NCBI GenBank assembly: GCA_018830565.1
Contig: JAHJRX010000054.1
Location: 1 to 41,187, forward strand
Reading direction: 5' to 3'
DNA from: a bacterium
GTDB lineage: Bacteria; UBA9089; JAHJRX01
Length of the DNA stretch: 41,187 nt
This document shows positions 10,528 to 12,648 of this stretch, one piece after another. Under the pieces are notes generated by a model that saw nothing but the letters and a program-made list of their open reading frames with translations, searched no databases and was not told where the DNA came from. The first letter of the stretch is position 1; every line of letters begins with the position of its first letter. The translations under genes and the position numbers were made by a program.

Positions 10528-11370
10528 ATGTCTCTGGCAGATGAAATAAGCCAATGGATTAAGACTAAAGTAGAAGAAGCCAAGGCAAAAGGTGTTGTCG
10601 TTGGACTTAGTGGTGGCCTCGATTCTTCCGTAGTAGCTGCTTTAGTCAAAAAAGCGCTGGGAGATAATGTCTTAGGGCTAATCATGCCTTGTCAAAGCAA
10701 CCCCATAGATGAAGAAGATGCTTTACTGGTAGTCTCAAGATTAAATCTTAAGATAGAAAAAGTATCATTAGATGTTACCTACAGTAAGTTATTAGAAACG
10801 CTCCCTTTTGGTAATAAGTTAGCCTTGGCTAATTTAAAACCCAAGTTATTAGAAACGCTCCCTTTTGGTAATAAGTTAGCCTTGGCTAATTTAAAGCCCA
10901 AGTTATTAGAAACGCTCCCTTTTGGTAATAAGTTAGCCTTGGCTAATTTAAAACCAAGATTAAGAATGCTCATTTTATACTATTTTGCCAATAGTTTAAA
11001 CTACTTAGTAGCCGGCACCGGCAATAAATCAGAGATTATGGCTGGTTATTTTACTAAGTATGGAGATGGAGGGGTGGACATCTTACCTATTGGAGGATTA
11101 TTGAAGACAGAGGTAAGAGCCTTAGCCAAGGAATTCAATCTTCCAAAAAAAGTCTTAGAAAAAGCACCTACCGCTGGATTATGGCCAGAACAAACAGATG
11201 AAGATGAGTTAGGCCTCACTTATCATGACTTGGATGAAATCTTAAAGAGATTAGAGTCTAATGAAATCACCAATTTACCTCAAAAATTGGTGATTAAAGT
11301 TAAAAAATTAGTAGAAATTTCGCAGCATAAGAGAATGTTACCCTTGGTATTTAAACAAGATCTAAGTTAA
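10528..11370 (+). CDS. nadE: NH3-dependent NAD+ synthetase NadE with an internal triplication
   Basis: This protein amidates deamido-NAD with ammonia. The ATP pyrophosphatase loop LSGGLDSS is at residues 27-34, and GTGNKSEIMAGYFTKYGDGG and LWPEQTDEDELG are the usual downstream motifs. There is no glutaminase domain, so ammonia is the likely nitrogen donor. At 280 residues it is longer than the usual 240-250 because a 19-residue segment (LLETLPFGNKLALANLKPK) occurs three times in tandem at about 87-143. Removing two copies gives a normal length of 242 and restores the family pattern NLKPRLRM. AGAGG is upstream of the ATG. Whether the expanded enzyme is active is unknown. Confidence 0.93.
   Translation: MSLADEISQWIKTKVEEAKAKGVVVGLSGGLDSSVVAALVKKALGDNVLGLIMPCQSNPIDEEDALLVVSRLNLKIEKVSLDVTYSKLLETLPFGNKLALANLKPKLLETLPFGNKLALANLKPKLLETLPFGNKLALANLKPRLRMLILYYFANSLNYLVAGTGNKSEIMAGYFTKYGDGGVDILPIGGLLKTEVRALAKEFNLPKKVLEKAPTAGLWPEQTDEDELGLTYHDLDEILKRLESNEITNLPQKLVIKVKKLVEISQHKRMLPLVFKQDLS
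10786..10956 (+). repeat. Three tandem 57-bp copies inside nadE
   Basis: The units lie at 10786-10842, 10843-10899 and 10900-10956. They differ only in the last few bases (AAACCC, AAGCCC, AAACCA). Each is 19 codons, so the frame is kept. Such near identity argues for very recent expansion by slippage or unequal recombination. Confidence 0.95.
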
Positions 11371-11377
11371 GGTAAAT

Positions 11378-11935
11378 ATGTTACGAGTAATTTCTGGAAT
11401 TGCCAGAGGAAGTAAGCTTAAGAACGTAAATCTTTCTTCTACTCGACCTATTCAGGATCGAGTAAAAGAGTCGTTATTTAATATCTTAAAAGATAACCTT
11501 GAAGATTCTCTCTTTTTAGATTTATTTGCTGGCACTGGAAGTGTAGGAGTTGAAGCTTTAAGTCAAGGTTGCCAAAAAGCCATCTTTGTAGAAAATAATT
11601 ACCAAGCGATAGAAGTAATAAAATTTAACCTAAAAAAAACAAATTTTATCCTTAAGTCTCAAGTCATAGACCAAGATGTTTTTAAGGCGATAAAGATGCT
11701 TCACCAGCAAAAACAAGTATTTGACTTTATCTTTGTAGGACCTCCTCAATTTAAGGATCTTTTAAGTAAAACCTTACTAAGTTTAAAAGAATATCCTTTG
11801 TATATTCCCTCTACGACCATAATTATTGGCCAAGCTCACCCTAAAGAAGAGCTTAAAGAGATTCCTTCCTTTAGATTACAAGAAAAAAGAAGATATGGAA
11901 ATACAGTCCTCTTATTTTATAAAGTTGATCCTTAA
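11378..11935 (+). CDS. rsmD: 16S rRNA (guanine-966 N2) methyltransferase RsmD-like
   Basis: This 185-residue SAM-dependent methyltransferase is of normal length for RsmD. It starts with RVISGIARGSKL and has the RsmD-typical TRPIQDRVKESLFNIL (about 22-37). The SAM-binding motif DLFAGTGSVGVEAL is at 48-61. The catalytic motif, normally D/N-PP-Y/F, reads GPPQF at 121-125, so the acidic or amide residue is Gly. The C-terminal EKRRYGNTVLLFY matches the family. The gene begins seven bases after nadE. The last 64 bases are copied downstream in the 166-bp duplication. Family assignment is firm, but catalytic competence is open. Confidence 0.85.
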   Translation: MLRVISGIARGSKLKNVNLSSTRPIQDRVKESLFNILKDNLEDSLFLDLFAGTGSVGVEALSQGCQKAIFVENNYQAIEVIKFNLKKTNFILKSQVIDQDVFKAIKMLHQQKQVFDFIFVGPPQFKDLLSKTLLSLKEYPLYIPSTTIIIGQAHPKEELKEIPSFRLQEKRRYGNTVLLFYKVDP

Positions 11936-11954
11936 AGAGAAAGATTGAGGCTGG

Positions 11955-11981
11955 TTGAATTAGCCAGTAATTTGCTATAAT
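11955..11981 (+). promoter_or_regulatory. Upstream copy of the duplicated greA promoter
   Basis: An extended -10 (TGCTATAAT, hexamer at 11976-11981) is preceded by TTGAAT at 11955-11960 with a short 15-base spacer. The extended -10 may compensate for the spacing. Transcripts from here would carry the short leader frame at 12012. Confidence 0.5.
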
Positions 11982-12011
11982 CTAAAATAAGACCAAAGGC
12001 GAGGTGAAGAA

Positions 12012-12101
12012 ATGGACGAATTATATTTAACTACCGATAGATTATAAGAAAAAAGAAGATATGGAAATACAGTCCTCTTGTTTTATAAAGTTGATCCTTA
12101 A
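12012..12101 (+). pseudogene. Duplication-born greA-start/rsmD-end fusion with a nonsense codon
   Basis: The first greA copy begins with a good AGGTGA site and reads MDELYLTTDRL and then TAA at 12045-12047. Beyond that stop the same frame continues with the RsmD tail EKRRYGNTVLLFYKVDP to 12101. The stop arises because CAA in the parent copy is TAA here. The product would be an 11-residue leader peptide lying between two promoters. Confidence 0.75.
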
Positions 12102-12120
12102 AGAGAAAGATTGAGGCTGG

Positions 12121-12147
12121 TTGAATTAGCCAGTAATTTGCTATAAT
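12121..12147 (+). promoter_or_regulatory. Proximal copy of the duplicated greA promoter
   Basis: TTGAAT at 12121-12126 and the extended -10 TGCTATAAT (hexamer 12142-12147) are the second copy. The greA ATG is 30 bases downstream with AGGTGA five bases before it. Confidence 0.55.
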
Positions 12148-12177
12148 TTAAAATAAGACCAAAGGCGAGGTGAAAAA

Positions 12178-12648
12178 ATGGACGAATTATATTTAACTAC
12201 CGAAGGACTAAATAAACTAAAAGAAGAATTAAATTATTTAAAGAATGTCAGAAGAGGAGAGCTTTCTAAAGCCATCGGTGAAGCCCGAGACTTAGGGGAC
12301 CTTCGTGAAAATGCAGAATATCAATCAGCCAAGGAAGAACAAGGACGAACAGAAGCCAAAATTAGATTCCTTGAAGAAAAGATAAGCCGGGCAAAACTTG
12401 TAGAAAATGAAAAGTTTCCCACTGATACCATTTGTATTGGTTCTAAAGTAAAATTAGAAGACTTAGATAAAAATTTAGAGCAAATTTATACTTTGGTTAG
12501 TCCCTTAGAAACAGATTTTAATTCTGGAAAAATATCAATTAAATCTCCTGTCGCTAAAGGACTATTAGGAAAAAAAGTAAGTGAGGTAGTAGAAATTAAT
12601 ATTCCCGCTGGTCAATTACACTACAAAATATTAGATATCTCTAGATGA
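12178..12648 (+). CDS. greA: Transcription elongation factor GreA
   Basis: This 156-residue protein (family about 158) binds the RNA polymerase secondary channel and stimulates transcript cleavage in backtracked complexes. The N-terminal coiled coil carries the conserved tip GEARDLGDLRENAEYQSAKE (about 35-54), whose acidic Asp and Glu residues are catalytic helpers. The C-terminal FKBP-like domain ends with GKKVSEVVEINIPAG. It is served by a duplicated promoter. Its last 18 bases overlap tail to tail with the HD-GYP gene on the other strand, so the two transcripts converge without a visible terminator. Confidence 0.95.
   Translation: MDELYLTTEGLNKLKEELNYLKNVRRGELSKAIGEARDLGDLRENAEYQSAKEEQGRTEAKIRFLEEKISRAKLVENEKFPTDTICIGSKVKLEDLDKNLEQIYTLVSPLETDFNSGKISIKSPVAKGLLGKKVSEVVEINIPAGQLHYKILDISR

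Follow-up and report, generated by a model that had tools for sequence, protein, structure and literature searches.

Here we ask whether the copying of a gene boundary in a bacterial chromosome has provided the downstream gene, greA, with a new regulatory region, or whether the copy is a harmless product of a genome in which such duplications are frequent. The window, that is, the whole stretch of DNA analyzed, is one entire contig (C54) of 41,187 bp from a draft genome of 1,695,465 bp in 86 contigs that is 99.3% complete.

The duplicated rsmD-greA boundary

The genes surrounding the boundary were named from NCBIfam models scoring over their cut-offs, plus Pfam. They are nadE (10528-11370; TIGR00552), the open reading frame (ORF) of rsmD, encoding the 16S rRNA G966 methyltransferase (11378-11935, forward strand; TIGR00095, 146.5 bits against a cut-off of 117.5), and an intact greA of 156 amino acids (12178-12648, forward strand), which is over the cut-offs of NF001263 and TIGR01462 and carries both Pfam GreA domains. 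Between rsmD and greA, TRF and pairwise comparison identified a direct tandem duplication of 166 bp on the forward strand, with copy 1 at 11872-12037 and copy 2 at 12038-12203, exactly to the base where the first-pass annotation had placed it. The array reported by TRF (11872-12203) has a period of 166, 2.0 copies, a 97% match and zero indels, and 162 of the 166 positions are identical between the copies in the pairwise comparison; a repeat of this length and identity exceeds chance. The four differences between copy 1 and copy 2 (11879 C/12045 T, 11914 A/12080 G, 11982 C/12148 T and 12009 G/12175 A) are all transitions. The match in this register breaks off sharply at either end, with zero shared bases at the junction.

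Each 166-bp unit comprises the last 20 codons of rsmD and its stop, a short hairpin, the promoter-like motif TGCTATAAT, a GAGGTG ribosome binding site (RBS), an ATG and the opening 26 bases of greA. Copy 1 runs from the last base of rsmD codon 165 through codons 166-185, the stop, the intergenic region, the promoter-like site and the RBS to the first 26 bases of greA, while copy 2 holds a remnant of the rsmD tail with an early TAA, the promoter-like site, the RBS and the real greA start. The rsmD gene is whole, its 3' end falling within copy 1, and the start of the intact greA belongs to copy 2. Because the upstream gene ends in the first copy and the downstream gene starts in the second, neither gene is harmed, and taken by itself the case exemplifies how a tandem duplication spanning a gene boundary can be tolerated with both genes staying whole.

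Two adjoining copies on the same strand, with flanks that continue normally, place this repeat among the short tandem duplications (tens to hundreds of bp) of bacterial chromosomes, which form without long homology. Here too the copy is head-to-tail and no junction bases are shared in the greA case or in that of ispH described below, although this genome differs in holding many such duplications, often across gene boundaries. We consider it probable that the repeat does no harm and is simply a boundary duplication in a genome prone to such events. In such a history, a single-step tandem duplication without junctional homology would have copied the rsmD-greA boundary, persisted and then begun to drift, with four transitions to date, and it would be one of many short tandem duplications carried by the half of the genome that was sampled.

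Comparison with relatives covered flanks of about 1.5 kb or less, within which greA was absent from all 14 rsmD loci examined in relatives and rsmD was absent from all five greA loci examined in the same phylum. The rsmD-greA junction was thus in none of the loci by which the four differences might have been polarized. No DNA match over the greA array was found in 60 other genomes, with at most six candidates scored in each, and G001, the only genome of the same family (98% complete), gave no GreA or RsmD match in protein searches. Among the literature matches listed we found no paper on a duplication pattern of this kind.

Leader reading frame and promoter-like sites upstream of greA

The ATG of copy 1 at 12012 opens an 11-codon ORF on the forward strand (12012-12047) whose translation, MDELYLTTDRL, consists of eight GreA residues, one junction codon and then the frame of the rsmD tail, and which is closed by a TAA (12045-12047) where rsmD reads CAA. 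Translation thus bears out the in-frame GreA/RsmD fusion, the leader of 11 residues and the CAA/TAA difference that had been described earlier. A change from CAA to TAA is the reasonable direction, since the ancestral rsmD must be sense at this position, an argument from the reading frame itself and not from an outgroup. Beyond the TAA the leader frame follows the rsmD tail to its duplicated stop, so that the ORF would otherwise run to 12101; as it would still end before greA, whose start lies 130 bases beyond the present end of the leader ORF at 12047, the early stop is unlikely to matter much for greA.

The main evidence for a promoter is the extended -10-like TGCTATAAT, at 11973-11981 in copy 1 and 12139-12147 in copy 2 on the forward strand, which is to be taken as a candidate only, as the motif scan did not place it above chance in the window. 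The motif TGNTATAAT occurs five times there, two of them in the duplicated pair, against an expectation of 3.48, and 25 of 100 shuffles reach five. A two-hexamer promoter scan picked out another site in each copy (9/12), two being found against a shuffle mean of 1.4. Terminator-like hairpins were also found once per copy, at 11950-11968 in copy 1 and at 12116-12134 in copy 2 (forward strand; 8 pairs, 3 of them G-C, with the tail AATTTGCTAT), two in all against a shuffle mean of 0.3. They are weak and the U tract is poor. The hairpin of copy 2 sits between the two promoter-like sites and, being part of the duplicated unit, would have to be passed by any transcript from the first site before greA is reached.

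These observations bear on the view that the duplication gave greA functional promoters in tandem and a leader that is translated, and that it has been kept because greA expression is altered as a result, a view we regard as unlikely. In its favor, the -10-like motif, the GAGGTG and the ATG are kept in both copies, all four differences falling elsewhere. Against it stand a promoter motif no more frequent than chance, a leader region that folds no better than shuffled sequences (z = -0.37), the copying of a weak terminator-like hairpin between the first promoter-like site and greA, and the occurrence of like boundary arrays at unrelated genes. The first-pass annotation had held that promoter, RBS and first greA codons were copied, yielding tandem promoters and a short leader that could change greA regulation; the copying of the RBS and start and the short ORF stand, whereas the promoter is reduced to a promoter-like motif not above chance. 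An altered regulation of greA is therefore possible as a prediction from the sequence, and its effect is probably small. Under a harmless duplication, the upstream copy might add a further transcription start giving an mRNA with a useless 11-codon ORF, the copied hairpin would partly block transcription from that start, and transcripts of greA would still come chiefly from the promoter closest to it and from read-through out of nadE-rsmD.

A natural comparison is the greA leader of E. coli, for which PMC6829880 describes two overlapping promoters, P1 and P2, a leader RNA termed GraL, and an intrinsic terminator in the leader at which most greA transcripts end. The likeness lies in two promoters (promoter-like sites in our case) and a leader hairpin ahead of greA, and the difference in that a spacing of 166 bp separates the sites here, which stem from a duplication and come with a leader ORF. 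The comparison is an analogy in layout only.

Tandem arrays across the genome

Arrays were collected with TRF (period of at least 30, match of at least 85%, score of at least 80, overlapping arrays merged) from 844,198 bp, about half of the 1,695,465-bp genome, which yielded 36 arrays or 4.3 per 100 kb. The same rule gave six arrays in 1,244,574 bp of controls: none in 80 named greA-gene loci (481,301 bp) or in E. coli K-12 (50,000 bp), one in G001 (122,428 bp), none in G004 (167,568 bp), three in G009 (123,277 bp), and one, none and one in G028, G030 and G054 (100,000 bp each). The 80 loci surround one housekeeping gene and may be array-poor, and leaving them out gives six in 763,273 bp; moreover the stretches from G001, G004 and G009 are mostly short contigs, in which arrays may be under-counted. 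The density in G009, of the same phylum, is 2.4 per 100 kb and not far from that of the genome under study; with these three arrays in 123 kb, an elevated number of arrays may not be peculiar to the lineage examined here.

The nearest parallel to greA is a duplication in L167 (9483-9796; 157 bp, two copies, four differences, all transitions), which spans the boundary between an acyltransferase gene and ispH, shares zero bases at its junction and leaves a leader ORF of 39 amino acids encoding a truncated IspH (LYTB by Pfam). By arithmetic on the array spans, the junctions share no bases in L248 and three in L242. The copies in L172, L239 and L165 (at 11938) are spaced and are not exact tandems. 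Units of 41-87 bp are repeated about 3 to 4.6 times in several arrays, which in this respect resemble minisatellites, the known class of bacterial variable-number tandem repeats; the greA array differs in having two copies that have already diverged.

Eight arrays lie within genes, and their periods are divisible by three in all eight, as against four of the 28 others. This frame-keeping is partly built in, since an array that shifts the frame would truncate the ORF and thereby escape being called internal, and some of the eight belong to proteins that are of low complexity or are long and repetitive. One in-gene array is found in nadE itself (10786-10955, forward strand, by TRF), where three in-frame copies of 57 bp make up the same kind of event as the rsmD-greA duplication. 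Its 19-residue unit, KLLETLPFGNKLALANLKP, adds about 38 residues ahead of the conserved C-terminal block, and the PDB relative 2e18 aligns to nadE over residues 9-92 and again over 134-273, with the gap between the two blocks falling in the array.

Six arrays are found no more than 300 bp from a contig end, where 1.3 would be expected, which suggests that the assembly tends to break at arrays and that their true number is probably higher. These are at 1-164 of the window, L137 6-228, L165 18871-19086, L242 8727-8867, L244 290-499 and L247 3835-3988.

Whether the greA repeat could be an artefact, produced when the overlapping contig ends of two strain variants were joined and the overlap left unmerged, has to be weighed against this background. 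The blunt junction, a draft assembly of 86 contigs and an identity of 97%, which could be strain variation, would all agree with such a join. Arrays of 3 to 4.6 copies would not be expected from it, however, contigs tend to end at arrays and not to be joined there, and the genes flanking boundary arrays are whole by domain match, the long matches including ispH, the acyltransferase, Glu/Gln-tRNA synthetase, MoaC, ROK, Macro and others; frame-keeping within genes adds weak evidence in the same direction, being partly built into the gene calls. We hence judge an artefact to be distinctly unlikely.

Origin of the duplications and their association with gene starts

Junctions that are blunt or nearly so would be compatible with duplication during replication or by another mode that needs little homology, and we infer a mode of this kind for the greA repeat. 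Ku-dependent end joining was considered as a source of blunt junctions and set aside, as Ku (PF02735) was found in none of 20 genomes, the one under study included, while the control profile match was obtained in one of 14 control genomes, that of Bacillus subtilis. RecA and RecJ are present. MutS1 gave no match in this genome or in G001 of the same family, both 98-99% complete, and MutL gave four weak partial matches here, none over the cut-off. Loss of mismatch repair was rejected as the cause of the arrays: MutS1 is likewise without a match in G001 and G004, which nonetheless have one array in 122 kb and none in 168 kb, so that the absence of MutS1 leaves the array load unexplained, and G009 has a partial MutS1 match but three arrays in 123 kb. 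Nor are the all-transition differences of greA (4/4) and ispH (4/4) a distinctive signature of mismatch-repair loss, as 100 transitions and 91 transversions were tallied over 24 of the 36 arrays, the other 12 being left out for indels or a match under 92%. Two arrays, L241 and L251, are seemingly out of register, and the tally without both is 48 transitions to 17 transversions.

The remaining question is whether gene starts are favored. Among the 28 arrays not internal to genes, 15 take in the start of an intact gene, seven only an end and six neither, by a simple home-made gene caller whose calls are approximate. Random placement of the non-internal arrays gives 9.9 (sd 2.5) gene starts, 15 being reached in 3.7% of 3,000 simulations. 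Because the arrays themselves have added to the intergenic space on which these simulations drew, the proportion of starts that they predict is lowered. A start codon survives in an upstream copy of 12 of the 15 arrays, where it begins a short ORF; L159, L238 and L239 have no usable one there, and that of L241 serves only a small ORF that was itself called inside the array. Gene starts could thus be favored, but a process aimed at them, linked for instance to transcription initiation, is highly improbable as the maker of these duplications: the excess of starts and the 12 of 15 retained start codons speak for it, whereas that excess is borderline, comes from the home-made caller, is uncorrected for other tests and was set against a lowered expectation.

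A broader scenario, which we hold to be very unlikely, is that an uncultivated lineage without detectable MutS1 keeps making gene-start duplications, through which housekeeping genes (greA, ispH and a tRNA synthetase gene of the glutamyl type, for instance) acquire additional start regions and leader ORFs; if true, these young additions would be raw material for new leader-peptide regulation, caught early. The 36 arrays in half a genome, 15 of them with a gene start, offer a young and comparable set in which to follow the rise and decay of leader ORFs and doubled promoters. In L242 (7415-7667) a 125-bp duplication has produced a leader ORF of 42 amino acids; its stop and the start codon of the next gene downstream, which is intact, share bases, an arrangement that could allow coupled translation.
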